From Lachnospiraceae bacterium (lineage in GTDB: Bacteria > Bacillota_A > Clostridia > Lachnospirales > Lachnospiraceae), in NCBI GenBank assembly GCA_900764695.1, contig CAAFOY010000079.1:11396-75395 (forward strand): a stretch of DNA of 64,000 nucleotides, in the 5' to 3' direction. Below the pieces are notes generated by a model, which was not told the origin of the DNA, ran no database searches, and worked only from the letters and a program-made list of their open reading frames with translations. Both the position numbers and the translations under genes were made by a program. Shown here piece after piece: positions 31,370 to 59,703 of this stretch (the stretch's first letter is position 1; each line of letters begins with the position of its first letter).

Positions 31370-31450
31370 GGCGAAAATAAAATGAACGAAGTTCGTTTCT
31401 TAAAATATTTTCGCCGACCAGCCGCTGACCGAAGGGAGGGGGCATTACAG
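31370..31450 (+). repeat. Structured intergenic element, copy A
   Basis: GGCGAAAATA (31370-31379) pairs perfectly with TATTTTCGCC (31406-31415), enclosing a hairpin AAATGAAC-GAA-GTTCGTTT. A second hairpin, GCCGCTGACC-GAA-GGGAGG with GGGC, ends at about 31444, then ATTACA. The lipoprotein ribosome site follows at once. The same layout occurs at 51557 and 59625. Confidence 0.8.
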
Positions 31451-31472
31451 TATTATAGGAGGAGAGAAATAT

Positions 31473-32366
31473 ATGAGATCAACAAAGGTAAAAGTTTTAG
31501 CGGTAACAGCAGCAGTAACAGTTATGTTTACAGGGTGTATGACAGAAAATGCTAATGTAAAGATTAATTCAGATGGAACAGCATCTGCAGTAGCTACAGT
31601 AGATATTGATAAAGCAAGCATGGATACATGGTTAACTTCATCAGGACTGACAACTTCAGATATTTCTGATGGAAAAGAAATGAAAGTTGTAACAAAAGAT
31701 GGCAAGGAATTTTACGAAGCAACAGAAACTTACTCATCAACAGTTGATAAGATTGGTGAAGTAGTAAAAGAAGCATTATCAAGTGATGCTTATGTAACAA
31801 GCACTACATTATACAGTGAAGTAAGTTTGGCACAGAGTGAGTCAGTTGCTATGTACTCAGCTATGGGAATCGACACATCAGCTATTACACTTAACTTTAG
31901 CATTGAGTTTCCTGCAGCAATTACATCAACAACAGGAACAATTGATCCTGCTAACCCAAACAAAGCTAATTTTGTTATTAACTTAGCAACAACAAATATG
32001 ATAGTATTTGCAACAACAGATTCTACAGTAACATCTGATGCAGTTAAAGCAACAGTACAGAAACTTAATCAGGTAGGAAAAGTTAAAGTTAAGAGTCTTA
32101 AGGCAAATAAAGTAAAAGGTAAAAAGGCAACAGCTACTTTAAAATTTAAAAAGGCAGCTCAGGCTAAGAATTACCAGATTCAGTGGTCTACAAATAAGAA
32201 CTTCAAGAAGAAAACAAGTGCTACAGCTAAGAAAGTGAGATACACTATTAAGAACTTAAAGAAGGGCACAAAGTACTTCGTAAGGGTAAGAGCCGCAAAG
32301 ACAAATTACTGCGGAACAGAAGTTTATGGCGATTGGTCAGTTAAGACAGTTAAAACAAAAAAATAA
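31473..32366 (+). CDS. Lipoprotein with C-terminal fibronectin type III-like domain
   Basis: The 297-residue protein has a lipoprotein signal with lipobox FTGC (Cys near residue 22). The middle is rich in Thr, Ser, Ala and Asp (residues ~23-205) and includes NVKINSDGTASAVATVDIDK, a beta-strand start common in lipoproteins of this group. The C-terminal ~90 residues look like an FN3 domain (KNYQIQWSTNKNFKKK; RYTIKNLKKGTKYFVRVRA). AGGAGGAG precedes ATG 31473. It has its own element (copy A) upstream and a terminator downstream. A surface or polysaccharide-binding role is inferred. Confidence 0.8.
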   Translation: MRSTKVKVLAVTAAVTVMFTGCMTENANVKINSDGTASAVATVDIDKASMDTWLTSSGLTTSDISDGKEMKVVTKDGKEFYEATETYSSTVDKIGEVVKEALSSDAYVTSTTLYSEVSLAQSESVAMYSAMGIDTSAITLNFSIEFPAAITSTTGTIDPANPNKANFVINLATTNMIVFATTDSTVTSDAVKATVQKLNQVGKVKVKSLKANKVKGKKATATLKFKKAAQAKNYQIQWSTNKNFKKKTSATAKKVRYTIKNLKKGTKYFVRVRAAKTNYCGTEVYGDWSVKTVKTKK

Positions 32367-32418
32367 AACAGATTTTATAATAAAAGCAAATTTATGATAG
32401 AATTTGAAAATTAATAAG

Positions 32419-32480
32419 AACACCGATATGTTAATAAGATTAGGAATTTAATCTTTAGATGTTAATATATCGGTGTTTTT
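32419..32480 (+). terminator. Intrinsic terminator after the lipoprotein gene
   Basis: AACACCGATAT (32419-32429) pairs with ATATCGGTGTT (32467-32477), enclosing a second small stem, then a T tract. Confidence 0.85.
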
Positions 32481-32948
32481 AATTGTTAAAAAAAGAAAAG
32501 TAACTACTGACAATTTAATATATTAGGAATTTATGGAAAGAAAATAGATAATAAAATTAATGATGTTAGTATAAGGAAAATTAATTAAATTTATATAATG
32601 AAAAAATATGACTGTTAACTATTAATAAAATAAAAAATAATAAAAACGTTTCTAAAATAATAATACTTTCATAAAAATGCGTATTGTAATGTTTTTATTT
32701 AAGTGGTAAGATTAATGAAAATAGCTTTAAATAAGCTTACATAATACACTACTATCATATATAACAAAATGTTTTGGGGAAGACATTATTACTGAACACA
32801 ATTTTTATATGTAGTTAGAAGATAAAACTATTTATGAGAGAGAAACCGGCACTTTGTAGGGAAGAGTGTCGGATTTTTTATTTCATTTGGGAAAAACCAA
32901 ATATAGGAGAAGAGATAAGTTCGATAAATAGGGGAGGTAAATTAAATA
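32481..32948 (+). promoter_or_regulatory. Long AT-rich leader of the GGDEF gene with hairpins and a terminator
   Basis: No ORF is supported here. AATAAAAACGTT (32639-32650) pairs with AATGTTTTTATT (32688-32699) around an inner AATAC/GTATT and CAT/ATG stem. Further on, CCGGCACT (32846-32853) pairs with AGTGTCGG (32865-32872) and is followed by ATTTTTT, a terminator just 70 nt before the gene. The second structure looks like a leader attenuator. No match to a known c-di-GMP riboswitch was recognised. Confidence 0.5.
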
Positions 32949-34250
32949 ATGGATACAATGCTTATTGTAGATGACAATGAGATTGATAGAAATATCATTG
33001 CTAATTATTTTGCAGAAGATTTTATGATTCTGGAGGCGCAAAGTGGAGAAGAGTGCTTTAGAATTTTAAAAGAGTACAAATATAATATTGATATTGTATT
33101 ATTGGATAACTGGTTACCTGATATGACAGGTGTGGATATTCTTAAGGAAAGAAAGTTAGATCAAAGATTTGCAGATATTCCTGTTATTATTGTTACAGTT
33201 AACAATGATTCAGCAAATTTAATCGAAGCTTTTAAAAATGGAGCAGATGATTACATAACAAAGCCGCTTGTAAGGGAAGTAATTAAGGCACGTGTAAGCA
33301 ATGTTTTGATTGCTACAAGAAAATACGCAGAAATACAAAAGAAAAACAGAGAATTGTCAGAACTTTCCGAACTTGATCAGATGACAGGGTTATATAATAA
33401 GATGACAACTGTTAATAAAATTAATAACCGGCTTTATGAACATAAGAATCATATAGGTGCAATTATTGTTGTTGATATGGATGATTTTAAATATATAAAT
33501 GATAGTGAAGGACATTTGATTGGTGACCATGCAATAAAACGTGTATCTAGAATATTGAAGGATAACTTTAGAAAAGAAGACATAATAGGTCGAATTGGCG
33601 GAGATGAATTTGTTGTATTTTTAAATGATATTCCGGATAAAGAGATTGCCAGAAGAAAGGCAAGAGATATAATTAGAATATTTAAAGTAAAGAAAAGTAC
33701 AGTGATTAAAGGAAGAACTACTGTAAGTGTCGGATTAGCATTTGCTGATAATGGAACAAATGATTATAAAGAATTATTTGACAGAGCTGATAAAGCTTTA
33801 GCAGAAGCAAAGAAATATGGTAAAGCATGTTACCATGAATATGGCGTGGATGATTATGGTACTTATGAAGAAAAAAGAGAAAGCGTTATTGTATATAGTA
33901 AAAGCCGAACCATATGTCATGCGATAGATAAGGCAATCAGTAGCAAATATAACGTGATTGAAGTTATTTCATCAGACGAAATAGATAAAGTTATAAAGCA
34001 ACAGCGCGAAATTAGGATTATAATTGCGGATTTATCAAATGATGAAGATGATGGAAAATTAATTATGGATTATTTAGATAATAATAAGGATATAGCAGGT
34101 ATTCCTAAGATTGCAGTTTGCAAGGAAAGCAATATCGAGCAGTGTAAGATAGCAATTCAGGGAGGCGTTGTTGATTTGATGATGGAACCTATTGAAAAAG
34201 ATATTGTGAGAAGAAGAGTATCAAGAATAATTAAAGATGAGGAAAAGTAA
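32949..34250 (+). CDS. Response regulator with GGDEF (diguanylate cyclase) and second REC-like domain
   Basis: Residues ~1-120 are a receiver domain with acidic pocket DD8-9 and phosphoacceptor D53 (LLDNWLPDMTG). Residues ~150-300 are a GGDEF domain with an intact R215-IGGDEF motif and an allosteric RxxD site (R208-KED) five residues before it, so it should make cyclic di-GMP and be product-inhibited. Residues ~315-430 resemble a second, degenerate receiver (IIIADLSNDEDDGKL). No kinase is encoded nearby. AGGGGAGG precedes ATG 32949. The protein likely acts in the cytoplasm. Confidence 0.9.
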   Translation: MDTMLIVDDNEIDRNIIANYFAEDFMILEAQSGEECFRILKEYKYNIDIVLLDNWLPDMTGVDILKERKLDQRFADIPVIIVTVNNDSANLIEAFKNGADDYITKPLVREVIKARVSNVLIATRKYAEIQKKNRELSELSELDQMTGLYNKMTTVNKINNRLYEHKNHIGAIIVVDMDDFKYINDSEGHLIGDHAIKRVSRILKDNFRKEDIIGRIGGDEFVVFLNDIPDKEIARRKARDIIRIFKVKKSTVIKGRTTVSVGLAFADNGTNDYKELFDRADKALAEAKKYGKACYHEYGVDDYGTYEEKRESVIVYSKSRTICHAIDKAISSKYNVIEVISSDEIDKVIKQQREIRIIIADLSNDEDDGKLIMDYLDNNKDIAGIPKIAVCKESNIEQCKIAIQGGVVDLMMEPIEKDIVRRRVSRIIKDEEK

Positions 34251-34340
34251 ATACTAACCATAATATAGTTAGTAATATTTATTTTTAATTTTAATCCAAG
34301 CTTTAATAATTAGTTGAATAAATCCTGAAAATAAATATGA

Positions 34341-34390
34341 AATCTTCGAAAAAGAGGAGGCAATAACCAAATCTTTTTCGGGGATTTTTT
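34341..34390 (+). terminator. Intrinsic terminator after the GGDEF gene
   Basis: AATCTTCGAAAAAGA (34341-34355) pairs with TCTTTTTCGGGGATT (34372-34386), allowing G-U pairs, followed by TTTT. Confidence 0.85.
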
Positions 34391-34391
34391 A

Positions 34392-34462
34392 TTGACAAAA
34401 AGAGGATGTTATGTGATAATAACTTTAATGCTTTAAAGCGTAACGGTTTAAAGCGACGATAA
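34392..34462 (+). promoter_or_regulatory. Promoter and operator-like repeats of the symporter gene
   Basis: TTGACA (34392-34397) and GATAAT (34415-34420) are 17 bp apart. Just downstream, TTTAAAGCG occurs twice (about 34433-34441 and 34448-34456), once within a CTTTAAAG palindrome. This may be a repressor site overlapping the transcription start. Confidence 0.65.
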
Positions 34463-34491
34463 AGGTATGTAACTAAAAGTGGAGGAACAAA

Positions 34492-36018
34492 ATGTTAGTT
34501 AAAGTTTTATTATTGATTGTATTTTTTGCAGTCATGATTGGAATTGGTGTGTATACAAGAAAGCATGCCACAGATGTTAACGGGTTTGTATTGGGTTCAA
34601 GATCTGCAGGACCATGGATTACAGCATTTGCATATGGAACATCGTATTTTTCAGCAGTTGTTTTTGTAGGATATGCAGGACAGTTTGGTTGGAAATATGG
34701 TATTGCTTCTACATGGATTGGACTTGGTAATGCCATACTTGGTAGTTTGTTAGCATGGTTTGTATTAGGTAGAAGAACAAGAGTTATGACTCAGCATATA
34801 GATGCTAAGACAATGCCTGATTATTTTGGAAAAAGATATAACAGTGATGCACTTAAAATAGCAGCCAGTGTTATCACATTTGTATTCTTAATTCCATATA
34901 CAGCATCTGTATATAATGGTCTTTCAAGATTATTTGGAATGGCATTTGACATACCATATAGCACAGTTGTTATTATTATGGCAGTGCTTACAGGACTTTA
35001 TGTTATTCTTGGTGGATATATGGCAACAGCAATTAATGACTTTATTCAGGGGATTGTAATGTTGTTTGGTATTTGTGCAGTTATTTATTCAGTATTAAAC
35101 GGACAGGGTGGATTTTACAGCTCATTGTCAAAACTTGCAGCGCAGGTGCCTGTAGAGGGAGATGTAATTAAGGTAGCAGGTGACGGAATATTTGCATCAT
35201 TTTTTGGACCTGATCCATTAAATCTTTTAGGAGTGATTATATTAACTTCATTAGGAACATGGGGACTTCCTCAGATGGTTGGTAAATTTTACGCAATTAA
35301 AAGTGAAAAATCAATCAAGACAGGTATGATAGTTTCAACTGCATTTGCAGTAGTTGTTTCAGGTGGATGTTATTTCTTAGGAGGATTTGGAAGATTATTC
35401 TCTGATAAAATTGATATTGCAACCGGTGGATATGATTCAATTATCCCTACAATGCTTTCAACACTTCCTGATATATTAATAGGTATTGTAATTGTATTAG
35501 TATTATCAGCTTCAATGTCAACACTTTCATCATTAGTACTTACATCAAGTTCTACAATTACAATTGACTTTTTGGGAACAACGGTATTGAAGAAAACAGC
35601 AGAAAAGAAACAAGTATTACTTATGAGAATTTTCGTAGTAGTATTTGTAGCAATTTCTGTAATTATCGCATTAAATAAAGACAGCATTCCAAATATTGCT
35701 CAGCTTATGGGTTACTCATGGGGAGCTTTGGCAGGAGCATTCCTTGCGCCATTTATGTATGGATTATATTGGAAGAAAGTTACAAAGGCTTCTGTATGGG
35801 CAAGTTTTATTTTCAGCATCATAGTTACTGTGACAAATATGATTTGGGGTTACATACAGTCACCAATTAATGCAGGTGCATTTACAATGCTTGTAAGTTT
35901 AATTCTTGTACCTATTATAAGTTTATTAACACCTAAGATGAAAAAAGAAGAAACAGATAAATTATTTGAATGCTTTGAAGAAAAGGTAGAAGTTCCGGTA
36001 AAGGATGCTTTGGATTAG
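34492..36018 (+). CDS. Sodium:solute symporter family transporter
   Basis: The 508-residue protein has about 13 hydrophobic segments and the SSS family signatures (FVLGSRSAGPWITAFAYGTS; GYAGQFGWKYGIASTWIGLGN; LPDILIGIVIVLVLSASMST, which carries the sodium-site serines). The closest family types are PutP/PanF and related carriers. The substrate cannot be read from the sequence. GGAGG lies 6 nt before ATG 34492. It is a single-gene unit with its own promoter, and the next gene, purC, also has its own. Confidence 0.9.
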   Translation: MLVKVLLLIVFFAVMIGIGVYTRKHATDVNGFVLGSRSAGPWITAFAYGTSYFSAVVFVGYAGQFGWKYGIASTWIGLGNAILGSLLAWFVLGRRTRVMTQHIDAKTMPDYFGKRYNSDALKIAASVITFVFLIPYTASVYNGLSRLFGMAFDIPYSTVVIIMAVLTGLYVILGGYMATAINDFIQGIVMLFGICAVIYSVLNGQGGFYSSLSKLAAQVPVEGDVIKVAGDGIFASFFGPDPLNLLGVIILTSLGTWGLPQMVGKFYAIKSEKSIKTGMIVSTAFAVVVSGGCYFLGGFGRLFSDKIDIATGGYDSIIPTMLSTLPDILIGIVIVLVLSASMSTLSSLVLTSSSTITIDFLGTTVLKKTAEKKQVLLMRIFVVVFVAISVIIALNKDSIPNIAQLMGYSWGALAGAFLAPFMYGLYWKKVTKASVWASFIFSIIVTVTNMIWGYIQSPINAGAFTMLVSLILVPIISLLTPKMKKEETDKLFECFEEKVEVPVKDALD

Positions 36019-36028
36019 TAGTAAAGCA

Positions 36029-36057
36029 TTGACTTACATAAAATCTCTGTTTATAAT
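36029..36057 (+). promoter_or_regulatory. Promoter of purC
   Basis: TTGACT (36029-36034) and TATAAT (36052-36057) have 17-bp spacing. The leader of about 80 nt holds no recognisable purine riboswitch. Confidence 0.75.
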
Positions 36058-36142
36058 TTTATGGTGAGCGTAAGCTTAGATACATAAAATAGAATAAACT
36101 GTTCAACAACACAAGGGCAGAAGAAAATGGAGGAGTACAATA

Positions 36143-37015
36143 ATGCAGGAATTTAAACCGGTAAAAGAAGGAAAAGTACGTGAGATTTACGATAATGGAG
36201 ACAATATGATTATTGTTGCAACAGACAGAATCTCAGCATTTGATGACATCTTAAAGAACAAGATTACAGACAAGGGTGCGGTTTTAACACAGATGTCAAA
36301 ATTTTGGTTTGATTATACAAAGGATGTTGTTCCTAACCATATGGTATCAACAGATGTTAAAGATATGCCGGAATTTTTCCAGAATGACAAATTTGCTGGC
36401 AGAAGTATGATGTGTAAGAAGTTAGAAATGCTTCCAATCGAATGTATCGTTCGTGGATACATTACAGGAAGTGGTTGGGCAAGTTACAAGGAAAATGGAA
36501 CAGTTTGCGGAATAAAACTTCCTGAAGGTCTTGTAGAATCAGATAAGTTGCCTGAACCAATTTATACACCAAGTACAAAGGCAGAAATAGGACTCCATGA
36601 TGAAAATATTTCATTTGAACAGAGTGTAGAAGTACTAGAAAAAGCATATCCTGGAAAAGGTGCAGAATATGCAGAAAAGATTAAAGATTGCACAATTGCT
36701 TTATATAAGAAATGTGCAGAATATGCTTTAAGCAAAGGAATCATTATTGCAGATACTAAATTTGAATTTGGTTTAGATGAAAATGGAAACGTAGTAATTG
36801 GTGATGAAATGTTAACACCTGACAGCTCACGTTTCTGGCCACTCGAAGGATATAAACCGGGACAGGGACAGCCTTCATTTGATAAGCAGTACGTAAGAGA
36901 CTGGTTAAAAGCTAACCCTGACAATGATTTACTTCTTCCGGATGAAGTTGTTGAAAAGACAGTTGCTAAATATAAAGAAGCATATGAATTATTAACAGGT
37001 GAAAAATTTGCATAG
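36143..37015 (+). CDS. purC: Phosphoribosylaminoimidazole-succinocarboxamide synthase
   Basis: PurC (SAICAR synthase) joins aspartate to CAIR with ATP in purine synthesis. The 290 residues include KVREIYDNGDNMIIVATDRISAF split over the ATP-binding start, IECIVRGYITGSGWASYKENG and DEMLTPDSSRFWP, all strongly conserved. ATG 36143 follows GGAGG. Other pur genes are not adjacent, so it is a single-gene unit between its own promoter and the terminator at 37040. Confidence 0.96.
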   Translation: MQEFKPVKEGKVREIYDNGDNMIIVATDRISAFDDILKNKITDKGAVLTQMSKFWFDYTKDVVPNHMVSTDVKDMPEFFQNDKFAGRSMMCKKLEMLPIECIVRGYITGSGWASYKENGTVCGIKLPEGLVESDKLPEPIYTPSTKAEIGLHDENISFEQSVEVLEKAYPGKGAEYAEKIKDCTIALYKKCAEYALSKGIIIADTKFEFGLDENGNVVIGDEMLTPDSSRFWPLEGYKPGQGQPSFDKQYVRDWLKANPDNDLLLPDEVVEKTVAKYKEAYELLTGEKFA

Positions 37016-37039
37016 GTTGATATGCAGATAAACCTTTAA

Positions 37040-37102
37040 AATCCCCATAAAATTTGATTGTGCGCTTTAAAAGCATAATTGAATTTTATGGGGATTTTTT
37101 TG
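37040..37102 (+). terminator. Intrinsic terminator of purC
   Basis: AATCCCCATAAAATT (from 37040) pairs with AATTTTATGGGGATT (to 37095), then eight T residues. Confidence 0.9.
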
Positions 37103-37490
37103 CAAAAGTGATGAGTGATAAAAAATTATCTGGTATAGTCTTAGTAAAGAAAGCAAAAATGGGGGACTTAACGATGGTTGAGATTTAAATAAATGTAATA
37201 TATGCTACTCAGAAACAGCAATACGAAAGAGTTACACTTCCGAAATAATCTTAATGCGAGAAATTTTAGATAATAATTGTTGATGTTTTTTACGGATAAA
37301 TTTTTCTTTTTTGATTTCATCCGTAAATATAGTAAAAAATCCAAAAACAAATCCTATATACAATCTACAAGCAAACCCCAAATTATAAATCCCAACGAAA
37401 ATCCCCCAAAAACAAACCATAAACACAATCTACAAGCAAACCCTGCTTTCCCACTATATAAATATCCCTCAAAATACATCTCTACATTCA
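37103..37490. other. Gene-poor, C-rich stretch with diverged 65-bp repeat
   Basis: No convincing gene is present. A 19-nt direct repeat, ACAATCTACAAGCAAACCC, occurs at 37360-37378 and 37425-37443, 65 bp apart. Flanking bases also match loosely, so the units look like a decayed tandem duplication. An inverted pair TTTACGGAT/ATCCGTAAA (about 37297-37328) forms a hairpin. The minus strand here is unusually G/T-rich. The short ORFs that cross the region lack ribosome sites. Confidence 0.5.
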
Positions 37491-37519
37491 TTGACGAATA
37501 TATCCTAATTAGGTATAAT
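37491..37519 (+). promoter_or_regulatory. Promoter of the ior operon with a palindrome in its spacer
   Basis: TTGACG (37491-37496) and TATAAT (37514-37519) are 17 bp apart. A perfect palindrome CCTAATTAGG (37504-37513) fills the end of the spacer, where a bound repressor would block RNA polymerase. Transcription is predicted to start near 37526. Confidence 0.7.
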
Positions 37520-37637
37520 TTACTTTATGAGTTTAAAGCAAAAAAGCAGTAAATTATGCTAAATACAAAATAATATGAAGTGCATTTGTATTGCACTATC
37601 AGTTTTATACATAATGACGAAAGGCAGGTTACATATT

Positions 37638-39383: not shown

Positions 39384-39958
39384 TGGCAGATACAAAGAAT
39401 ATTATGATTGTTGGTGTAGGCGGACAGGGTACACTTCTCACAAGTAGAGTTTTAGGTGGAATCACAATTGAAAGCGGATATGATGTAAAACTTTCAGAAG
39501 TTCATGGGATGGCACAGCGTGGAGGAAGCGTTGTTACATTTGTAAGATATGGAGAAAAGGTAGCTGAACCAATTGTTGAAGAAGGTCAGGCAGATGTATT
39601 AATCGCATTTGAACGTCTTGAAGCATTAAGATATGCACATTTTCTTAAAAAAGACGGTGTAATTATCGTAAATGACCAGAGAATTGACCCTATGACAGTA
39701 GTTACAGGATTAGCAGAATATCCTGAAAACATTATTGAAAATCTTAGCAAAAAACATAAAGTAATCGCAGTAAATGCAATGGATGAAGCATTAAAACTTG
39801 GAAATTCAAGAGTATTTAATGTAATTATTTTAGGCGTTGCTGCAAAACATATGGATTTTGAAAAAGATAAATGGATTGAAGTTATAAAAGCAACAGTTCC
39901 ACCAAAGACAGTAGACATTAATATTGCTGCATTTGAAAAAGGATACGAATTAGCATAA
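39383..39958 (+). CDS. iorB: Indolepyruvate ferredoxin oxidoreductase, beta subunit
   Basis: The 191-residue gamma-type domain carries the glycine-rich start IMIVGVGGQGTLLTSRVLGG and the conserved HGMAQRGGSVVTFVRYG stretch. Its ATG overlaps the iorA stop (TAATG), so the two subunits are made together. With iorA it forms the full enzyme; no separate delta ferredoxin subunit is needed because the clusters are in IorA. Confidence 0.95.
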   Translation: MADTKNIMIVGVGGQGTLLTSRVLGGITIESGYDVKLSEVHGMAQRGGSVVTFVRYGEKVAEPIVEEGQADVLIAFERLEALRYAHFLKKDGVIIVNDQRIDPMTVVTGLAEYPENIIENLSKKHKVIAVNAMDEALKLGNSRVFNVIILGVAAKHMDFEKDKWIEVIKATVPPKTVDINIAAFEKGYELA

Positions 39959-39987
39959 TAAAAATAAACAATAAAGAAGGTGCAGTT

Positions 39988-40818: not shown

Positions 40819-40830
40819 TGAGGTAGAGAA

Positions 40831-49836: not shown

Positions 49837-50370
49837 ATGGATATAGGATTTAAGATAAAAGAATTGAGAATGGAGAGGGGATTAACGCAGGAAGAACTGG
49901 CTGACAGGGCAGAACTTTCTAAGGGGTTTATTTCTCAGGTTGAAAACAATCTTACATCTCCATCAATTGCAACATTGACAGATATTTTGCAGTGTCTGGG
50001 AACGGATTTAAAAGATTTTTTTAATGATACGAAGGATGAGCAGATAGTCTTTTCGAAAGAGGATTATTTTGAAAAAAATGATAGTGAATTAAAGAATTAC
50101 TTACAGTGGATAATCCCTAACGCCCAAAAGAATACGATGGAACCGATTCTTCTTACATTAGAACAGGGAGGTTCGACGTATCCGGACAATCCTCATGAGG
50201 GAGAAGAATTTGGATACGTATTAAAGGGAAGCGTGGAAATCCATATAGGTGGAAAGATTTATAAGGCAAAAAAAGGCGAGTCATTTTATTATGAAGCAAA
50301 ATACAACCATCATATAGAATCAAAAAAAGGTGCAACAATAATATGGGTAAGTTCACCACCGAGTTTCTAA
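49837..50370 (+). CDS. XRE-family regulator with cupin sensor domain
   Basis: The 177-residue protein has an N-terminal helix-turn-helix (FKIKELRMERGLTQEELADR; LSKGFISQVENNLTSPSIAT) and a C-terminal cupin (~105-175: PHEGEEFGYVLKGSVEIHIG; GESFYYEAKYNHHIESKKGA). This is the PuuR/MppR type often controlling polyamine or amino acid genes. ATG 49837 lies 7 nt after AAAGGA; an upstream TTG-frame start is rejected. It is followed after 137 nt by potA, so polyamine sensing is a reasonable inference. Confidence 0.9.
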   Translation: MDIGFKIKELRMERGLTQEELADRAELSKGFISQVENNLTSPSIATLTDILQCLGTDLKDFFNDTKDEQIVFSKEDYFEKNDSELKNYLQWIIPNAQKNTMEPILLTLEQGGSTYPDNPHEGEEFGYVLKGSVEIHIGGKIYKAKKGESFYYEAKYNHHIESKKGATIIWVSSPPSF

Positions 50371-50507
50371 AAATATCGAAACAATAATGGTAAGTTTATC
50401 ACTTGATTTATAACGACGACTAAGAACTACCATAAATTTATAGGTGTGTTGATTAACGTATATAATTGTAAAAAATTGGAACTATTAAAAAGATTGGAGG
50501 ATGTACA

Positions 50508-51551
50508 GTGAGTAATAAGATTATTGAATTAAAAGGAATAACAAAGACATTCGATGACCAGCAGGTTTTAAAAGGAATAGATTTAAATATATATGAAAAT
50601 GAATTTTTGACATTGCTTGGACCTAGTGGATGCGGAAAGACAACACTTCTTAGAATTTTAGGCGGATTTGAATCTGCAGACAATGGAGAGGTATTGTTTA
50701 ATGGCAAAGATATTGCAAAGGTTCCGCCATATAAAAGAGAAATAAATACGGTATTTCAGAAATATGCTCTTTTTCCATTTTTAAATGTATATGATAATGT
50801 GGCTTTTGGTCTTAATTTGAAAAAAATGGATAAGGACGTAATAGATAAAAAAGTTAAAAATATTTTAGCTTTAGTTGGACTTGAAGGATTTGAAAAGAGA
50901 GATGTTACAAGACTTTCAGGTGGACAGCAGCAAAGAGTTGCCATAGCAAGAGCTCTTGTAAATGAACCTAAAGTTTTGCTTCTTGATGAACCACTTGGAG
51001 CGCTTGATGCAAAATTAAGAAAGGACATGCAGATTGAACTAAAAAAGATTCAGAAAGAAGTAGGAATTACTTTCGTATTTGTAACTCATGACCAGGAAGA
51101 AGCGTTGTCAATGTCCGACACGATTGTTGTTTTAAATGATGGTGTTATCCAGCAGATTGGTACGCCTATGGACATTTACAACGAACCTGAAAACAGATTT
51201 GTTGCAAATTTTATTGGCGAGTCAAATATTATAGAAGGAAATATGCTTAAGGATTGTCTGGTAAAATTTGATGATATTGAATGGGAGTGCGTTGATAAAG
51301 GGTTTAAAGATAATGAAGAAATTGAAGTAGTTCTTCGTCCTGAAGATATGGATATTGTAAAACCCGAAGAGGCACAGCTTGTAGGCACAATTATTTCAAA
51401 GGTATTTATGGGAGTTCACTATGAGTATCTTGTTGAAACAAAATATAGAAATTATAAAGTTCATACAACAGATGATTATGAAGTGGGGCTTAGGGTTGGA
51501 ATGACAATTGACCCATTTGACATTCAGGTTATGTATAAGATGGATTATTAA
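50508..51551 (+). CDS. potA: Spermidine/putrescine ABC transporter ATPase
   Basis: The 347-residue protein has Walker [11 protein letters not shown]-loop [20 protein letters not shown], signature [15 protein letters not shown], Walker [12 protein letters not shown] and the switch His in [11 protein letters not shown]. The C-terminal TOBE domain starts near 240 ([22 protein letters not shown]). It powers uptake of polyamines through PotB and PotC. The start GTG 50508 follows TTGGAGGA. It is followed by the intergenic element copy B and then potB. Confidence 0.95.
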
Positions 51552-51556
51552 TAGGA

Positions 51557-51633
51557 GGAAACAAAATGAACGAAGTTCATTTTCTATAAATGTTTCCGAC
51601 GAATAGCCGCCGACCGAAGGGCGGGGGCATTAC
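51557..51633 (+). repeat. Structured intergenic element, copy B
   Basis: GGAAACA (51557-51563) pairs with TGTTTCC (51591-51597), enclosing AAATGAAC-GAA-GTTCATTT. The second hairpin GCCGCCGACC-GAA-GGGCGG with GGGC follows, then ATTACA and the potB ribosome site AGGAGGAA. It lies between potA and potB, inside an operon. Confidence 0.8.
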
Positions 51634-51653
51634 ATGTTTTACAGGAGGAAGAA

Positions 51654-52481
51654 ATGGGACATTATAAAAATTTAATAAAACCGTATGTGTTCTGGTCATT
51701 TTTGCTTATTGTTGTGCCGCTGTTATTGATTGTGTTGTATTCAGTTACGGCAGGCGACAATTCCGTGTTGACCATACATTTTACATTAGACAATTTTAAG
51801 AAAATATCAGATCCTGTATATTTAAATGTATTTATAAAATCTCTTAAGATGGGATTGATTACTACAGGAATTTGTGTGGTGTTTGCATATCCGATGGCAT
51901 ATATTATTGCAAAATTTGACGAGAGTGTTCAGGATATTTTAATTTTGCTGGTTACAATTCCTATGTGGATTAATACTTTGCTTAGAACTTATGCATGGAT
52001 TAGTTTGCTATCAGACAATGGAATTGTAAATTCGTTATTAAAGGTTTTAGGAATAAATCCTGTAACAATGATGTATACAGATTTTTCAGTTGTAATGGGA
52101 TTAGTATGTGACTTGCTTCCGTTTATGGTAATTCCAATCCATACATCTCTTGCCAAAATGGATTATTCCTTAGTAGAGGCAGCAAATGATTTAGGAGCAA
52201 ATAGATTTCAAACTTTTACAAAAGTTATTTTTAAACTTTCGATTCCGGGTGTTATAAGTGGTGTAACGATGGTGTTTTTACTTTCAATATCAAGTTTCGT
52301 AATTCCATCTTTACTAGGTGGACGTCAGTATGTACTTATTGGAAATTTAATTGAAAATCAGTTTATATCAGTTGGAGACTGGAATTTCGGAAGTGCGATT
52401 TCTATTATCCTTGCAATTATTATATTAGGATTAATCAGATTAATGAAAAAGATTGACTCTGAGGAAGCAGGAGGTGAATAG
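51654..52481 (+). CDS. potB: Spermidine/putrescine ABC transporter permease PotB
   Basis: The 275-residue permease has six membrane helices and the cytoplasmic EAA loop (VEAANDLGANRFQTFTKVIF) that contacts PotA. Typical Pot features include YPMAYIIAKFDE and the PMWINTLLRTYAWI stretch. ATG 51654 follows AGGAGGAAG. It overlaps the next gene by zero bases (stop TAG at 52481, then ATG at 52482), so potB and potCD are coupled. Confidence 0.95.
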   Translation: MGHYKNLIKPYVFWSFLLIVVPLLLIVLYSVTAGDNSVLTIHFTLDNFKKISDPVYLNVFIKSLKMGLITTGICVVFAYPMAYIIAKFDESVQDILILLVTIPMWINTLLRTYAWISLLSDNGIVNSLLKVLGINPVTMMYTDFSVVMGLVCDLLPFMVIPIHTSLAKMDYSLVEAANDLGANRFQTFTKVIFKLSIPGVISGVTMVFLLSISSFVIPSLLGGRQYVLIGNLIENQFISVGDWNFGSAISIILAIIILGLIRLMKKIDSEEAGGE

Positions 52482-54359
52482 ATGAATAAGAAAGTTTCAA
52501 TAGGACCAAAGTTATATATTGCATTGTGTTTTATATTTTTCTATTTGCCAATTGCAATTACAATGTTATTTTCATTTAACTCATCGAAGTCACTTACTCA
52601 TTTTACAGGATTTTCATTTAGATGGTATGAAAAATTAATTACGGACAGAGATATTATTTCGGCTGTTTATGTTTCAATCAGTATTGCCATAATTTCAACA
52701 TTGGTATCAACTGTTCTTGGGACAATTACTTCAATCGGACTTTCAAGAAGTAGAAAGGTTCTTAAAGAATGGGTTCTTAGCGTAAATGACCTTCCTATTA
52801 TGAATCCTGATATTGTTACGGCTATAGGTCTGATGATTTTATTTTCTTCTATTAAATTAGGTAGAGGATATTTGACAATGTTGCTTGCACATATCGCATT
52901 TTGTACGCCATATGTAATAACAAGTGTTTATCCTAAGGTAAGACGAATGGATCACAACCTTGCAAATGCTGCAATGGATTTAGGAGCAACACCTTTTCAA
53001 GCACTTACAAAGGTTATAATTCCAATGTTAAAGCCTGGAATTTATGCTGGAATGCTACTTGCATTTACAATGTCACTTGATGACTTTGTAGTTTCATATT
53101 TTGTAACTGGAAATGGTGTCCAAAACATTTCAATAGTAGTTTATAACATGACAAAAAGAACAAATCCGACAATTAATGCACTGTCAACTCTTCTTATTTT
53201 AGCAGTTGTAATTATTTTGATTGTTGTAAACGTAATTCCTGCCATTGCAAAAAGACAGCACAGAGAGGCAAATGAAATTGCATCAAAGGGACATGGAGTG
53301 TGGAAGAAATTTGCTCCGGTGCTTTCAGTTATATTGGCAATTGCAATTGCGGGCGGATGTGTTTATGGATTTGTTAAAGAACAAAACCGTCAGGTACTTA
53401 GAGTGTTTAATTCAGGAGAATATATGGATACAAATCTTCTGACTAAATTTGAAAAAGAATATGACTGTGAAGTTGTTTACGAAACATATGATTCAAATGA
53501 GTCAATGTATACAAAACTGTTAAGTGGAGCTGAGTATGACATTTTAGTACCGTCTGACTATATGGTTGAAAGACTTATAAAAGAAGAAAGAATTCAGCCG
53601 GTTAACTGGGATTTAATAACAAATAAGGATAATGTAATCAGTAATCTGTTTGAGAATGAATATGATCCTGAAAACAAATATACAGTGCCTTACTATTGGG
53701 GAACTGTAGGAATTTTATATAACAAAAATATTGTAGATAAGGCAGATTTGGCACAAGGTTGGGAAATCTTAAAAAATAAAAAATATACAGGCAATATTTA
53801 TATGTATGATTCAGAAAGAGATTCATTCATGGTTGCATTGAAAGCGTTAGGTTATTCAATGAATACTTCAAATCATGATGAACTAAAGAAGGCATATGAC
53901 TGGCTTGTTGACCAGCGTGAAATTATGCATCCTGTTTATGCCGGAGATGATGTTATTGACAATATGATTTCAGGCAATAAAGCAATGGCAGTTGTATACT
54001 CAGGAGATGGAGCGTATATTATGTCAGAAAATGAAGATATGGATTTCTTTGTCCCTGAGCAAGGCTCAAATGTGTGGTATGACAGTATGGTTATTACTAA
54101 GCAGTGTAAAGATACAAAACTTGCTAATGAATTCATTAATTTTATGCTAAGGGAGGACGTGGCAAAGCAGAATACGGAATATGTAGGATATGATAGTGCA
54201 GTAAAATCGGTTTATGAATATTTTAGAGATGATGAATATGAAGGGATTTCAGCATGTGCGCCTGATATTTCAAATCCGTTAAATGAAACATTTAAATATC
54301 AGGATACTGAATTAAAAGAATTCTGTGCCGGTTTATGGACAAAGGTTAAGTCTTATTAG
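52482..54359 (+). CDS. potCD: Fused permease PotC and substrate-binding protein PotD
   Basis: The 625-residue protein joins two parts normally encoded apart. Residues ~1-265 are the PotC permease with its own EAA loop (NAAMDLGATPFQALTKVIIP). A membrane helix near ~280-300 (LSVILAIAIAGGCVYGFV) anchors the rest. Residues ~305-625 are a PotD-like periplasmic-type binding protein (VLRVFNSGEYMDTNLLTKFE; YDILVPSDYMVERL; VPYYWGTVGILYNK). There is no separate signal peptide for PotD. A fused anchor keeps the binding protein at the translocator. Such PotCD fusions are known in Firmicutes. Confidence 0.93.
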   Translation: MNKKVSIGPKLYIALCFIFFYLPIAITMLFSFNSSKSLTHFTGFSFRWYEKLITDRDIISAVYVSISIAIISTLVSTVLGTITSIGLSRSRKVLKEWVLSVNDLPIMNPDIVTAIGLMILFSSIKLGRGYLTMLLAHIAFCTPYVITSVYPKVRRMDHNLANAAMDLGATPFQALTKVIIPMLKPGIYAGMLLAFTMSLDDFVVSYFVTGNGVQNISIVVYNMTKRTNPTINALSTLLILAVVIILIVVNVIPAIAKRQHREANEIASKGHGVWKKFAPVLSVILAIAIAGGCVYGFVKEQNRQVLRVFNSGEYMDTNLLTKFEKEYDCEVVYETYDSNESMYTKLLSGAEYDILVPSDYMVERLIKEERIQPVNWDLITNKDNVISNLFENEYDPENKYTVPYYWGTVGILYNKNIVDKADLAQGWEILKNKKYTGNIYMYDSERDSFMVALKALGYSMNTSNHDELKKAYDWLVDQREIMHPVYAGDDVIDNMISGNKAMAVVYSGDGAYIMSENEDMDFFVPEQGSNVWYDSMVITKQCKDTKLANEFINFMLREDVAKQNTEYVGYDSAVKSVYEYFRDDEYEGISACAPDISNPLNETFKYQDTELKEFCAGLWTKVKSY

Positions 54360-54465
54360 AAGTGACTATTGCTATTATGACTTATAAAAATAAGTATGAG
54401 TTGAAATTTATAGAATTGTAACCGATTACAAATGAAGAAAAAGTATTATTAGAAAAAGGAGCATT

Positions 54466-55272
54466 ATGGCAAATATTATAGAGATAACTGATTTTAATTC
54501 TCCACAGTTAGATATTTATGCAAGAATGTCGGAAGGGCATCTTCTTAACAGACATGAACCTGAAAAAGGGATATTCATAGCAGAAAGTCCAAAGGTAGTT
54601 GAAAGAGCGTTAGATGCGGGATGTGAGCCGATATCAATGCTTGTTGAACATAAGCATATTGATGGAGAAGCAAAACCTATTATAGACAGATGTGGAGAAG
54701 TTCCTGTGTATACAGCGCCATTTGAAGTGCTTACACGGTTGACGGGATTTAAATTGACAAGAGGAATGTTGTGTGCAATGCATCGCCCACAACTTCCTAA
54801 TGTTTCAGAAGTTTGTAGCAAAGCAAGGCGTATAGCAGTTCTTGAAAATGTAATGAATCCTACAAATGTGGGAGCGATTTTCCGTTCGGCAGCAGCTTTA
54901 AACATGGATGCGGTTTTGCTCACTAATGGATGTAGTAATCCGTTGTATAGAAGAGCGATAAGAGTAAGTATGGGAACGGTATTTCAGATTCCTTGGACTT
55001 TTTTGGACAAAGAAAAAGGAGTAAGTGAACTTAAAGAATTAGGATTTAAGACAGCCGCTATGGCATTAACTGATGATTCGGTATCAATTGATAATGAGGA
55101 ACTTTTGGCAGAAGAAAAACTTGCAATAGTTCTTGGAACAGAAGGGGACGGACTTGCTAAAGAAACAATTGCAGACTGTGATTATACTGTAAAAATTCCG
55201 ATGTCTCATGGGGTAGATTCATTAAATGTAGCAGCAGCCAGTGCAGTTGCATTCTGGCAAATGGGAAAATAA
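54466..55272 (+). CDS. SpoU/TrmH-family RNA 2'-O-methyltransferase
   Basis: The 268-residue protein has an N-terminal substrate-binding domain (FIAESPKVVERALDAGCEPI) and a SPOUT knot domain with the three motifs: N-P-T-N-V-G-A-I-F-R, LGTEGDGL, and IPMSHGVDSLNVAAASAVA. It transfers methyl groups from S-adenosylmethionine to ribose in rRNA or tRNA. The RNA target cannot be told. ATG 54466 follows AAAAGGAGC. Confidence 0.92.
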   Translation: MANIIEITDFNSPQLDIYARMSEGHLLNRHEPEKGIFIAESPKVVERALDAGCEPISMLVEHKHIDGEAKPIIDRCGEVPVYTAPFEVLTRLTGFKLTRGMLCAMHRPQLPNVSEVCSKARRIAVLENVMNPTNVGAIFRSAAALNMDAVLLTNGCSNPLYRRAIRVSMGTVFQIPWTFLDKEKGVSELKELGFKTAAMALTDDSVSIDNEELLAEEKLAIVLGTEGDGLAKETIADCDYTVKIPMSHGVDSLNVAAASAVAFWQMGK

Positions 55273-55397
55273 TGTGGGCTTAGACCTTTTACTTCAGGCA
55301 TTTTAAAATTAAAAGTGTAAGACTAAAATCGACTTTGTCCACTTCAAAGTGGAAATAAACTTTTCGCTTCACGTTAAAATTAAATAAAAAAAATCGC

Positions 55398-55426
55398 TTG
55401 ACAAAAGAGTGTGGTTATTGTACTAT
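55398..55426 (+). promoter_or_regulatory. Promoter of the tRNA pair
   Basis: TTGACA (55398-55403) and TACTAT (55421-55426) are 17 bp apart. Confidence 0.8.
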
Positions 55427-55475
55427 AAAACACGCGAGTGCGACTCAAAGCAAGTGCATCATGAATAAGTGATGT

Positions 55476-55548
<73 letters not shown>

Positions 55549-55552
55549 CTCC

Positions 55553-55623
55553 GCGGGTGTAGTTCAATGGTAGAACACTAGCCTTCCAAGCTAGATACGT
55601 GGGTTCGATTCCCATCACCCGCT
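55553..55623 (+). tRNA. tRNA-Gly (TCC)
   Basis: The 71-nt cloverleaf has acceptor stem GCGGGTG/CACCCGC, a short D loop AGTTCAATGGTAGAACA, anticodon loop CTTCCAA (anticodon TCC) and T loop GGTTCGATTCCC. It follows tRNA-Phe after 4 nt. CCA is not encoded. Confidence 0.97.
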
Positions 55624-55685
55624 TTTGTTATGCCTAAAAATGCGTGTAGAATTTCTTAAAAGAAATATATTAAATATACTTAATC

Positions 55686-55722
55686 AAAAGAACCCACATC
55701 ATCGCTGATGTGGGCTCTTTTG
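55686..55722. terminator. Terminator between the tRNAs and the GH16 gene
   Basis: AAAAGAACCCACATCA pairs with TGATGTGGGCTCTTTT around TCGC, one mismatch. A/T tracts on both sides suit convergent transcription. Confidence 0.9.
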
Positions 55723-55733
55723 ATGTTACTATA

Positions 55734-56576
55734 TTATTTTTTCTGATAAACTCTTACATAATCAATAATAAATTCAAAAGGAATATTAGAATCATCTACA
55801 GGTCCGCCAAGCCCACCGCCGACAGCAGTATTTAATATGAGATAAAAAGGCTTGTCAAACGGCCATGAATCATGGCTTTGGTCTGTGTCATCAGCTTTGT
55901 TGTAACGACAGTAGCTTTTGCCATCAACGAAATATTCGATATAATCTTTAGTCCATTCCATTGCATAGACATGAAAATCATCTGAAAAATCAACGTCAAA
56001 AGTTACATTTGTTGTGTACTGAATGCCATCCTTACGTGTATGATTGTGATTTTTAGAATGAAGGCTGAACAATAAATGCTTTTTTAACCTTCCAATATGT
56101 TCTAAAATATCAATTTCACCACAGTTTGGCCAATGATCATTTTCAGGAATAGGAGGCAAAATAGCTCGTTGTTCCTTGCTCATGTTAAAGAAATCTGGGC
56201 GGCCATCAGGTCTTGTAGGAATTCCGTCAGGTAATTTATGAGGCTTAATATATGGCATCATCCATATTGCGGGCCATGAGCCGACACCTCTTGGCACTTT
56301 GGCACGAAATTCAAAATAACCATATGTCCACATTCCTTTATTTAAGGTGTTGACTTTTCCTGATGTGTATTCTCGGTCGCCATCCTTTTGCTTTAAAGAA
56401 CGTATTGTTAAATGACCATCTTTCACAAAAACATTATCAAGTCTGTCAGTATAGGCCTGAAGCTCGCGATTTGGCCACTGAAAGTTTCCGGTTTCATAAT
56501 TCCATTTTTTAGAATCTAATTTTCCTTCGTAATCAAATTCATCATTCCAAACTAAATTGTATTCATTAATATTCAT
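55734..56576 (-). CDS. Glycoside hydrolase family 16 beta-glucanase
   Basis: The 280-residue protein is a single GH16 domain without a signal peptide, so it is predicted to be cytoplasmic. The catalytic motif is G-E154-I-D156-I-L-E159, the beta-bulge E-x-D-x-x-E of laminarinases, with E154 as nucleophile and E159 as acid/base. WNDEFDYEG, YFEFRAKVPRGVGSWPAIWM and AMEWTKDYIEYFVDG are typical of beta-1,3- or beta-1,3-1,4-glucanases. A cytoplasmic glucanase would act on imported oligosaccharides, unusual for the family. The upstream site is weak (GGAGATAG before ATG 56576). Confidence 0.9.
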   Translation of the reverse strand: MNINEYNLVWNDEFDYEGKLDSKKWNYETGNFQWPNRELQAYTDRLDNVFVKDGHLTIRSLKQKDGDREYTSGKVNTLNKGMWTYGYFEFRAKVPRGVGSWPAIWMMPYIKPHKLPDGIPTRPDGRPDFFNMSKEQRAILPPIPENDHWPNCGEIDILEHIGRLKKHLLFSLHSKNHNHTRKDGIQYTTNVTFDVDFSDDFHVYAMEWTKDYIEYFVDGKSYCRYNKADDTDQSHDSWPFDKPFYLILNTAVGGGLGGPVDDSNIPFEFIIDYVRVYQKK

Positions 56577-56831
56577 AACTATCTCCGATAAAATTTAAAA
56601 TTCTTTTTGAATTTAACAATGAAAATATTTTTATGCAACACCTTTTTAAAATAATTTATACATAATAAATTGTTTTGGTGTACAATCACTATTGAGAATA
56701 AAATAAAAATATGTAAATATTGGGAATGATTGTGAATACATAACGTATAATATTAAATTTTACACAGTCAGAATAATGAGATTAAAAATTCTACAGTATT
56801 AAAAAAATAATAATCTAAAAGAGGAAATAAA

Positions 56832-58613
56832 ATGAATATAGTTTTAGTAGCAATAAATGCAAAATATATACATTCAAATTTAGCAGTTTACAGCCTGAAA
56901 GCTTATGCAGAAAAATATGCAAAAAATGAAAATATAGAAATAGAAATTGCAGAATATACAATAAATCAGACAGAGGACGAAGTACTTAGAAATTTATATG
57001 AAAGAAAGGCTGATATTTTAGCATTTTCATGTTATATATGGAATTTGCAAATGACAAAGCATGTAATTGAAAATATGAAAAAGGTTGCGCCTAATGTATC
57101 GATTTATATGGGAGGTCCTGAGGTCTCGTATAATGCTAAAGAATTTCTTTTACAAAATAATGAAGTAGAAGGAATTATGCGCGGAGAGGGAGAAAAAATA
57201 TTTGCAAATTTTGTTACGGCTGTGTCAGAGGAGAATAGACCGATACCAAATCTTTCCAATATAAAGGGAATGGTTTATAGAAGTGCGAGCGGTGAAATTA
57301 TTGAAAATGAATTGGAAAGCCCGCTCGATATGTCGGATATTCCATTTGTGTACAAAGATTTAAAACGGTTTGAAAATAAAATAATGTATTATGAGACGAG
57401 CCGTGGATGCCCATTTTCCTGTAGTTATTGCCTCTCATCGATAGATAAAAAATTAAGATTTAGAAATTTATCTTTAGTAAAAGAAGAATTGAAGTTCTTT
57501 ATAGATAATAAAGTCGCACAGGTAAAATTCGTAGACAGAACATTTAACTGCAAGAAAGACCATGCAATAGAGATATGGAAGTTTATAAAAGAACATGACA
57601 ATGGAATAACGAATTTTCATTTCGAAGTTGCAGCAGATTTGATGACAGATGAGGAAATAGAAATTATTAAAGATATGCGTCCAGGACTAATCCAGTTAGA
57701 AATTGGAGTGCAGTCTGTAAATGAGATGACTATTTCAGCAATAAACAGAAAGACAAATTTAGACAAAATAAGAGAAAAAGTTGCTAAGATTAAATCATTT
57801 GGAAATGTACATCAACATCTTGATTTGATTGCGGGATTGCCTTATGAAGATTATGATTCATTTGCAAATTCCTTTAATCAGGTTTATGCGATGAAACCTG
57901 ACCAATTGCAGTTAGGATTTCTTAAAGTACTTTATGGTTCAAATATGAAACTTATGAGCGGGGAATATGGAATAAAGTACTTGTCATATCCACCGTATGA
58001 GGTTTTAGAGACAAAATGGATTTCATATGAGGATGTGCTTAAATTAAAGGAAGTGGAAGAAGTAGTTGAAATATACTATAATAGTTTTCAATTTTCTAAT
58101 TCAGTTATGTATTTAGAAAAAATGTTTGAAACTCCATTTGAATTTTATGAAGAGCTAGGCACGTTTTATAAAGCAAACAGCATGAATGGTGAAAAACATT
58201 CGCGAATTGCAAGATATATATTGTTAAGAAAATTTGCAGAATTATTAATAAAAGAAGAAAATAGACCGATAGATATTAATAAGTTTGACGAATTATTAAC
58301 ATTAGATGTATATTTGCGTGAGAATATAAAAACAAGACCGTTATTTGCAAAAGATATTAATAACTTTAAGAAGGAAAAGCAAAGTATTTACAGAAATGAG
58401 AAAATATATGAAGTAATTCCTGCGTACAGGGATTATGATAGCAAGCAGATTGCAAAAATGACTCATATAGAAGTGTTTGAAAGAATTTATGAAGCACAGT
58501 CAAATCCGAAATATATTTTATTTGACTATAAAGACAGAAACGCGTTAAACAGCGAAGCAAACACAATTGATGTTACAAATTTAGTTGAAAGGTTTGGAGA
58601 GAATAATGACTAA
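56832..58613 (+). CDS. B12-binding radical SAM protein, DUF4080-type
   Basis: The 593-residue protein has an N-terminal cobalamin-binding domain (~1-135: VAINAKYIHSNLAVYSLKAY; ISIYMGGPEVSYN-like stretch) but lacks a clear DxHxxG cobalamin motif. The radical SAM core carries C193-x3-C197-x2-C200 (RGCPFSCSYCLSS). The C-terminal ~200 residues are helical (DUF4080-like). Such enzymes are mostly uncharacterised; methyltransferase or tRNA modification roles are possible. The exonuclease gene starts inside its last codons. Confidence 0.85.
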   Translation: MNIVLVAINAKYIHSNLAVYSLKAYAEKYAKNENIEIEIAEYTINQTEDEVLRNLYERKADILAFSCYIWNLQMTKHVIENMKKVAPNVSIYMGGPEVSYNAKEFLLQNNEVEGIMRGEGEKIFANFVTAVSEENRPIPNLSNIKGMVYRSASGEIIENELESPLDMSDIPFVYKDLKRFENKIMYYETSRGCPFSCSYCLSSIDKKLRFRNLSLVKEELKFFIDNKVAQVKFVDRTFNCKKDHAIEIWKFIKEHDNGITNFHFEVAADLMTDEEIEIIKDMRPGLIQLEIGVQSVNEMTISAINRKTNLDKIREKVAKIKSFGNVHQHLDLIAGLPYEDYDSFANSFNQVYAMKPDQLQLGFLKVLYGSNMKLMSGEYGIKYLSYPPYEVLETKWISYEDVLKLKEVEEVVEIYYNSFQFSNSVMYLEKMFETPFEFYEELGTFYKANSMNGEKHSRIARYILLRKFAELLIKEENRPIDINKFDELLTLDVYLRENIKTRPLFAKDINNFKKEKQSIYRNEKIYEVIPAYRDYDSKQIAKMTHIEVFERIYEAQSNPKYILFDYKDRNALNSEANTIDVTNLVERFGENND

Positions 58614-59331
58614 TGAATATGTCTGTGTGGATATTGAAACCACGGGATGTAAACCAATGGAAAATAAAATAATCGAAATAGGTGCTGTAAAGGTTAAAGA
58701 TGGAAAGATAGTTGACACATTCTCACGTCTTATAGACCCTGAATGTAATATCCCTTATTACATAACTAATCTTACAGGAATAACAAATGATATGGTAAAG
58801 GGGCAGGATACGATAGCTATTGTGCTTAAGGACTTTATTGACTTTGCAGAGGGTGATGTGATAATGGGGCATAATATAATGTTTGATTATAGTTTCCTAA
58901 AATGCAATGCCATGGCGTACAATTATAAATTGGAAAAAAGGGGAATTGATACGTTAAAGATTGCAAGAAAAACTATGCCTGAATTAGAAAGTAAGGCGCT
59001 GGATTATTTGTGCAGATATTTTGGAATTCTTGACGAAAATCATCATCGTGCATTTAATGATGCTGCAGTTACGGTTGAATTATATAATATTTTGTGTGGC
59101 AAATTTGGTGCAGAGTACAAGGAAGTATTTGAACCACAGCCGCTTGTGTGTAAAATAAAAAAAATACAGCCTGCCACGGCAAAACAAATAAAATATTTAA
59201 AAGATTTAATGGCATATCATGGTATAGAAGAGCAAATTGAATACGACAAACTGAGCAAAAATGAAGCATCTAAAAAAATAGACAAAATTATAAGCAAAAA
59301 GGGAAGAATTTTTGGCTTTGAGAACAAATAG
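58606..59331 (+). CDS. DnaQ/PolC-like 3'-5' exonuclease
   Basis: The 241-residue protein has the DEDDh exonuclease motifs: DIETTG, HNIMFDYSFL and HHRAFNDAAVT (Exo III with His and Asp). The C-terminal ~60 residues (TAKQIKYLKDLMAYHGIEEQ) form an added helical domain seen in some Firmicute exonucleases. ATG 58606 lies 6 nt after GGAG and overlaps the end of the radical SAM gene; a start 21 nt earlier is rejected. It may proofread or process nucleic acids. Confidence 0.9.
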   Translation: MTNEYVCVDIETTGCKPMENKIIEIGAVKVKDGKIVDTFSRLIDPECNIPYYITNLTGITNDMVKGQDTIAIVLKDFIDFAEGDVIMGHNIMFDYSFLKCNAMAYNYKLEKRGIDTLKIARKTMPELESKALDYLCRYFGILDENHHRAFNDAAVTVELYNILCGKFGAEYKEVFEPQPLVCKIKKIQPATAKQIKYLKDLMAYHGIEEQIEYDKLSKNEASKKIDKIISKKGRIFGFENK

Positions 59332-59497
59332 TGTTGTGTTATACTGTGATAATATAGGTTTATAAGCAAAACTATTATGGAATTTATAAGAATTTGCATT
59401 GCTAAAGTTAAGAAAATAGTGATAACATATGCAACCTGAGCAAATATGCAAATTAAAAATTTCTACAAATTATAAAAGTATATAAAGGAGAATTGAC

Positions 59498-59614
59498 ATG
59501 AATTTTTTTGATATGTTCAATAAGAAGAAAAACCAGAGAATCATTTCAGGTGTAATAATTGCAGTAGTTGTACTTGCAATGGTAGTGACAACAGTATTTT
59601 CTGTTATGCCGTAA
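59498..59614 (+). CDS. Small membrane protein of 38 residues
   Basis: This short ORF starts at ATG 59498, 7 nt after AAAGGAG, a clear ribosome site. It encodes a basic N-terminus (MNFFDMFNKKKNQRI) and one hydrophobic helix (VIIAVVVLAMVVTTVFSVM). It may belong to the small DUF4044-type membrane proteins. It is located just before element copy C and the VanW gene. Confidence 0.65.
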   Translation: MNFFDMFNKKKNQRIISGVIIAVVVLAMVVTTVFSVMP

Positions 59615-59624
59615 ATATAGAAGA

Positions 59625-59703
59625 GAAAACAAAATGAATGAATTTCATTTTTCTATAAATGTTTTCGACGAGTAGCCGCCGACCAAAGGGAGGGGCAATA
59701 CAG
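59625..59703 (+). repeat. Structured intergenic element, copy C
   Basis: GAAAACA (59625-59631) pairs with TGTTTTC (59660-59666) around AAATGAA-TGAAT-TTCATTT. The second hairpin GCCGCCGACC-AAA-GGGAGG with GGC follows, then AATACA and the vanW ribosome site GAGGAGG. Confidence 0.8.

Follow-up and report, generated by a model that had tools for sequence, protein, structure and literature searches.

The window analysed here, a stretch of 64,000 nucleotides (nt) from a Lachnospiraceae bacterium (assembly GCA_900764695.1, contig CAAFOY010000079.1, positions 11,396 to 75,395), carries three near-identical intergenic elements, one of them between a potA-like and a potB-like gene, and raises the question of what such an element is and what it does there. 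A scan against Rfam showed that all three are members of RF02987 "GA-cis", with matches above the 34.7-bit gathering cut-off over model positions 1-88. The following coordinates and scores were obtained on the forward strand, on which all window features named below lie: 31366..31453 (78.9 bits, E 2.4e-15), 51550..51638 (85.0 bits, E 5.8e-17) and 59618..59706 (66.9 bits, E 4e-12) for copies 1, 2, and 3, respectively. The first-pass annotation, made from the letters alone, had placed the elements within a few bases of these positions; it was wrong in recognising no known family, and an Rfam match was the result it had itself named as refuting. No fourth copy was found in the window by a permissive scan. 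We consider, at a probability of about 70%, that GA-cis, short and non-coding, is a mobile palindromic repeat of the repetitive extragenic palindrome (REP) or miniature inverted-repeat transposable element (MITE) type, transcribed and tolerated, rather than a dedicated switch. The mobile-repeat behaviour is what the present analysis adds to the catalogued family.

Each window copy contained two hairpins, and the fold was as first described, with a varying yet pairing basal stem, an inner hairpin with a GAA loop and a GC-rich hairpin with GA mismatches. Hairpin A (basal and inner stem) lay at 31370..31415, 51557..51597 and 59625..59666 in the minimum free energy (MFE) folds of copies 1, 2, and 3, respectively. 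Hairpin B (GCCGCYGA..GAGGGGGC, with GA mismatches) lay at 31421..31443 and 51606..51628 in the MFE folds of copies 1 and 2, while in copy 3 it was placed at 59675..59696 by likeness to the other two, the MFE register there being slightly different. The folding z-scores were -3.76, -4.48 and -2.95, and shuffled sequences folding as well as the real copy numbered 0/200, 0/200 and 1/200, respectively. When arms were exchanged between the window copies, the mean energy of hairpin A changed from -15.4 to -9.1 kcal/mol and that of hairpin B was nearly unchanged (-14.3 vs -14.2). The changes in hairpin A are thus compensatory, since the exchange weakens the fold by about 6 kcal/mol, and this bears out the compensatory basal-stem changes that had been proposed.

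The same arm exchange across 86 diverse copies showed that both GA-cis stems covary. Hairpin A gave -19.1 kcal/mol with its own arms vs -10.2 with swapped arms, the own arms beating the row mean in 84/86 copies and the best of 2000 permutation means reaching -11.3; hairpin B gave -13.3 vs -8.4, with the own arms better in 76/86. The stems were not retained in an alignment and model built from 53 copies, and the swap test was used instead. A separation of RNA from DNA selection by G-U vs A-C mismatches was dropped, the stem finder having scored shuffled sequence highly too. Weak matches (L085, L086, L096, L098, L100) and the copies of G163 were excluded from the arm-swap, strand-fold, mini-ORF (open reading frame), identity and GTAG/CGTC analyses and were counted in the neighbour, position, Shine-Dalgarno (SD) openness and G599/G664 analyses.

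The distribution of the family was patchy. At the census threshold (RF02987 match at E <= 0.001), 3/20, 9/144, 7/145, 11/392, 21/299, 5/391 and 3/398 genomes carried a match in seven sets, which overlap, the larger ones being under stricter filters, and a few of the matches fall below the family cut-off. The frequency dropped with distance, from 21/299 in the family of G182 through 11/392 in the order and 5/391 in the class to 3/398 in the phylum of G025, and none of 14 control genomes had a match. Carriers held 1 to 44 copies per genome; three close genomes held 44, 42, and 40, while 18 other relatives from the same search held 0-2. Identity between the fetched copies was 0.62-0.82 inside one genome and 0.54 across genomes, each high-copy genome having its own version. 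In G526, four near-identical 102-nt copies each stood before a different gene. Tandem copies occurred at 81-93 nt spacing, and hairpins also stood in rows, either A alternating with B or B only. In G163 (L108, L112, L115), A and B hairpins alternated in a row, resembling a bacterial interspersed mosaic element. In G537 (L250-L254) and G176 (L107, L109, L113, L116, L118, L120), GA-cis lay inside larger repeats away from gene starts; their flanks resembled long inverted repeats, and terminal inverted repeats were seen by eye only, in these larger repeats.

Comparison with relatives showed differences in presence and in copy number. The potA-potB gap measured 102 nt in the window vs a median of 9 nt in 80 relatives, and the GA-cis motif was found at this junction in 0/80 relatives by a pattern test and in 0/16 of these by an Rfam scan. 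In other lineages the potA-potB gaps of L019, L028, L063, and L066 contained small hairpins whose sequence, judged by eye, was a different one, as if this junction took up various repeats. Thirty G599 copies were compared with the close relative G664; for 8 of them a joint match was lacking in the available part of G664, and 4 short or paralogous matches were excluded. The 18 copies that could be placed were absent from G664 in 5 cases (one, C17:15337, with a possible short remnant there), decayed in 3, elsewhere in the gap in 1, different in copy number in 3 and in agreement in 6. The reverse comparison, with 17/32 G664 loci mapped, yielded 2 further sites at which G599 lacks the element and 2 at which a remnant is left. 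The SD sequence AGGAGGAA flanked the element on both sides at G599:C15:8366 and at the G664 copy opposite G599:C9:10176. Between rpoA and rplQ, an Rfam-recognised copy was present in G001, G005, and G008 (folding z -2.0 to -2.5), a diverged sequence still forming two hairpins was present in G003, G006, G025, G032, and G035 (z -3.0 to -4.8), a remnant was left in G027, and the element was absent in one close relative (G009).

The position of GA-cis relative to genes was analysed in 156 neighbour records, which hold 30/44 of the G599, 18/19 of the G587, 13/17 of the G526, 11/13 of the G537, 10/12 of the G636 and 6/10 of the G559 copies. In the 127 records left by the filters (flank, length, last copy of an array), an SD-preceded start codon followed the 3' end, on the same strand and at a distance of at most 45 nt, in 88, vs 5/127 on the other side and 407/6040 random flank positions. 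Among the 111 of 156 records with an SD-preceded start within 90 nt, the start codon stood 8-21 nt past the model end in 85. The stop codon of the upstream frame fell at +2 to +5 of the element in 31/124 records and at +20/21 in 13/124, and both flanking ORFs were on the strand of the element in 106/156. Copies of G176, of G163 and of part of G537 mostly did not precede genes. The 90 distinct downstream genes matched 115 Pfam families with no theme, the commonest occurring in 3, and they gave no common gene set of the kind that a metabolite riboswitch or pathway leader would have. Genes after GA-cis included, by Pfam, ribosomal protein L2, ribosome recycling factor, serine hydroxymethyltransferase, and phosphofructokinase and, named by eye, rplQ, efp, groEL, infA, ftsY, and dnaX; the expectation that the element stands upstream of envelope genes was therefore not general.

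These observations give good support to one of the possibilities raised by the first-pass annotation, a mobile REP-like repeat, through the patchiness, the high copy numbers, the tandems and the absent sites in close relatives. As a mobile repeat, GA-cis would insert preferentially in the gap that separates one gene's stop codon from the SD of the following gene, in the orientation of the gene, the SD being the probable insertion target, and it would spread inside a genome as a home-grown version. Tandem arrays would form, expand and contract, deletion would remove copies, and insertions would persist where SD and stop codon remain; gain would then have contributed to the differences between relatives besides loss. 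The upstream gene would often get its stop codon from GA-cis and the downstream gene would keep or inherit its SD. Both neighbours would keep working ends because SD-like sequence lies at the 5' edge of the element and its 3' end stops just short of an SD; in copy 2 an AGGAGG at 51553..51558 lies at the 5' edge, directly 3' of the potA stop (51549-51551). It would be tolerated even before housekeeping genes because the mRNA carries two self-contained hairpins, and it is presumably neutral for expression. Movement may follow a REP-like cycle, through single-strand hairpins or recombination between SD-like ends, and some enzyme probably moves the unit. The three window copies would be insertions of this kind. 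How translation starts are found is a more speculative matter: the 3' strand of the basal stem, which reads UUCCUCC or GCCUUCC in two versions of the element, is complementary to SD-like sequence and could guide insertion at SDs, and insertion would then leave an SD on both sides with neither gene harmed, although we think this guide role improbable.

GA-cis shares several features with known repeats and differs in others. The accessible text on REPs (Di Nocera 2013, PMC3733652) describes the same size, copy number, species-specific versions, nearness to the end of the upstream gene and donated stop codons. Compared with the GTAG REPs of the accessible literature, the minus strand of GA-cis has GTAN before hairpin B in 64/87 copies and GTAG itself in 8/87. 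CGTC, the mark of another REP class in that literature, occurred on the minus strand in the stretch before hairpin A in 51/87 copies vs 8% in shuffles, and directly adjacent to hairpin A by MFE in 5/87; those REPs are given a stem of 8-9 bp and a loop of 4-5 nt, while hairpin A has a longer, two-part stem. Unlike REPs as described in these texts, GA-cis has two dissimilar hairpins in a fixed unit, a tight distance to the downstream SD, whereas REPs lie at varying distances from downstream ORFs (PMC3733652), and no link found to a REP-associated tyrosine transposase (RAYT, Y1), to which GTAG REPs are linked. The words 'Firmicutes' and 'Clostridi' are absent from the main text of PMC3733652. BOX elements of Streptococcus pneumoniae (Croucher 2011, PMC3049150) are, in the accessible text, likewise modular and hairpin-forming with a variable number of modules, and are judged parasitic without a dedicated gene class; they are overrepresented between convergent genes, whereas GA-cis stands before the SD in the orientation of the gene. 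Among the papers searched, one names the family, the Rfam 15 paper in its structure-updates table, and its Rfam type is 'Gene; sRNA' (small RNA). The literature searched gave no function for GA-cis, and for small repeats linked with the SD or with Lachnospiraceae it yielded no description of GA-cis-like behaviour, subscription papers lying outside that search.

Candidate movers and carriers were also searched for. A match to Y1_Tnp (IS200/Y1 transposase) tracked neither carriage nor copy number in the draft genomes compared, and this candidate was rejected. Of 2.9 million viral contigs, 1 matched the exact hairpin-B pattern, in GC-rich DNA that lacked the remaining element; plasmids gave no match, and four phage records had a 30-nt match. 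Carriage by phages or plasmids was rejected.

Several results weigh against a mobile repeat. Presence/absence differences alone could reflect loss, and gap length alone proves little because 5/80 relatives have a potA-potB gap of at least 80 nt without GA-cis. No clean target-site duplication was found across the G599/G664 sites examined, G599:C99 has no downstream SD, and G664:C28:10525 has lost about 14 nt. No enzyme moving GA-cis was found by the Y1_Tnp searches of 11 genomes and of 19 carriers and 11 non-carriers: the match was missing from 5 of the 11 genomes, all with at least 10 copies, including G599 (44), and it was present in 9/19 carriers vs 8/11 non-carriers, in draft genomes in which the gene may be missed. 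The sense strand folded better than the antisense strand (A -17.1 vs -15.0, B -13.0 vs -9.1), as a working transcript would. The two-hairpin fold between rpoA and rplQ survived heavy sequence change in 8 genomes, which looks like selection on RNA; the fold can last long at this junction, by selection or by repeated insertion.

Part of this evidence suits a true cis-regulatory RNA spread by duplication, which would let a general factor such as a ribosomal or RNA-binding protein control translation or would provide coupling across operon junctions. The fixed start distance, the same-strand bias, the strong covariation and the fold kept between rpoA and rplQ all speak for it, as does an SD with ATG in the 5' arm of 56/87 diverse copies. 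Folding predictions over 86 loci gave the SD and start of the downstream gene an openness of 0.495 when GA-cis was present and 0.529 when it was left out (p 0.003), and this slightly lower openness of the SD region also speaks for regulation. With a shuffled element in place of GA-cis the openness was 0.503 (p 0.48 vs the real element), which counts against it, and sequestration was unsupported against the shuffle. Translation control, another suggestion of the first-pass annotation, therefore has positional and structural support and lacks support in predicted openness. These results fit tolerance better than a switch, and such folding predictions leave room for regulation. The unrelated downstream genes and the copy numbers differing between close relatives also count against cis-regulation, as does the lack of GA-cis at the corresponding junction of relatives and, at rpoA-rplQ, in part of a clade; we judge cis-regulation possible though unlikely. 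Mimicry of the ribosome-binding site (RBS) was tried as a form of switch and rejected. The 5' arm resembled the RBS of its own gene with a mean score of 8.55 vs 6.51 +- 0.14 permuted (132 loci), and of 8.67 vs 7.54 +- 0.15 within genomes (116 loci); the likeness was carried by 25/132 loci scoring at least 12, at most of which the RBS comes from a partial next copy, and tandem remnants are its simplest explanation. The window copies scored 9, 9, and 10, and copy 2 was no closer to its own RBS than to others.

A less likely alternative is an mRNA processing or stability element, with the hairpins setting RNase cleavage or protecting operon segments and copies retained where useful; stable hairpins and the neighbouring ORFs shared on one strand agree with it, while tandem and decayed copies and the absences in close relatives speak against a needed function. 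A leader-peptide or relay ORF, in which ribosomes would reinitiate at the SD and ATG of hairpin A and be passed to the next gene, is very improbable and was rejected, since beyond the SD and ATG already counted and a 23-codon ORF in some G599 copies, the lengths scatter (commonest 4, 5, 23 and 16 codons), no peptide or frame is conserved, and the frame moves with the differing length of the element.

Covariation has brought to light many structured RNAs that still lack an assigned function, and GA-cis belongs to them. If the mobile-repeat interpretation holds, covariation and a place before genes are insufficient to call an RNA cis-regulatory, and such orphan RNAs need the absent-site test as applied here. 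Gut Firmicutes would also gain their own REP-like system preferring gene starts, a preference unreported for REPs in the accessible text of PMC3733652.

The genes beside the window copies were in keeping with the lipoprotein, permease and surface protein that had been proposed. Copy 1 was followed by an SD at 31457..31462 and a gene at 31473..32366 (ATG 31473) with an fn3 domain by Pfam and a lipoprotein-like signal by eye. Copy 2 lay, as claimed, within potA-potB, between an ABC_tran/TOBE_2 (potA-like) gene and a potB-like permease at 51654..52481 (BPD_transp_1, 48.9 bits; ATG 51654) with its SD at 51643..51648. Copy 3 was followed by an SD at 59710..59715 and a VanW/G5/peptidoglycan-binding protein gene starting at GTG 59723. 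Directly before copy 3, a 38-codon ORF at 59498-59614 encoded a small protein that probably spans the membrane once. The gene next after potB, at 52482-54359, combined a permease domain and a solute-binding domain within a single protein. Upstream of copy 1, a single 662-aa ORF at 29309-31297 joined a LeuA-type isopropylmalate synthase (HMGL-like, LeuA_dimer) to an AraC-type DNA-binding domain, an unusual enzyme-regulator fusion preceded by a T-box leader at 28934-29158.
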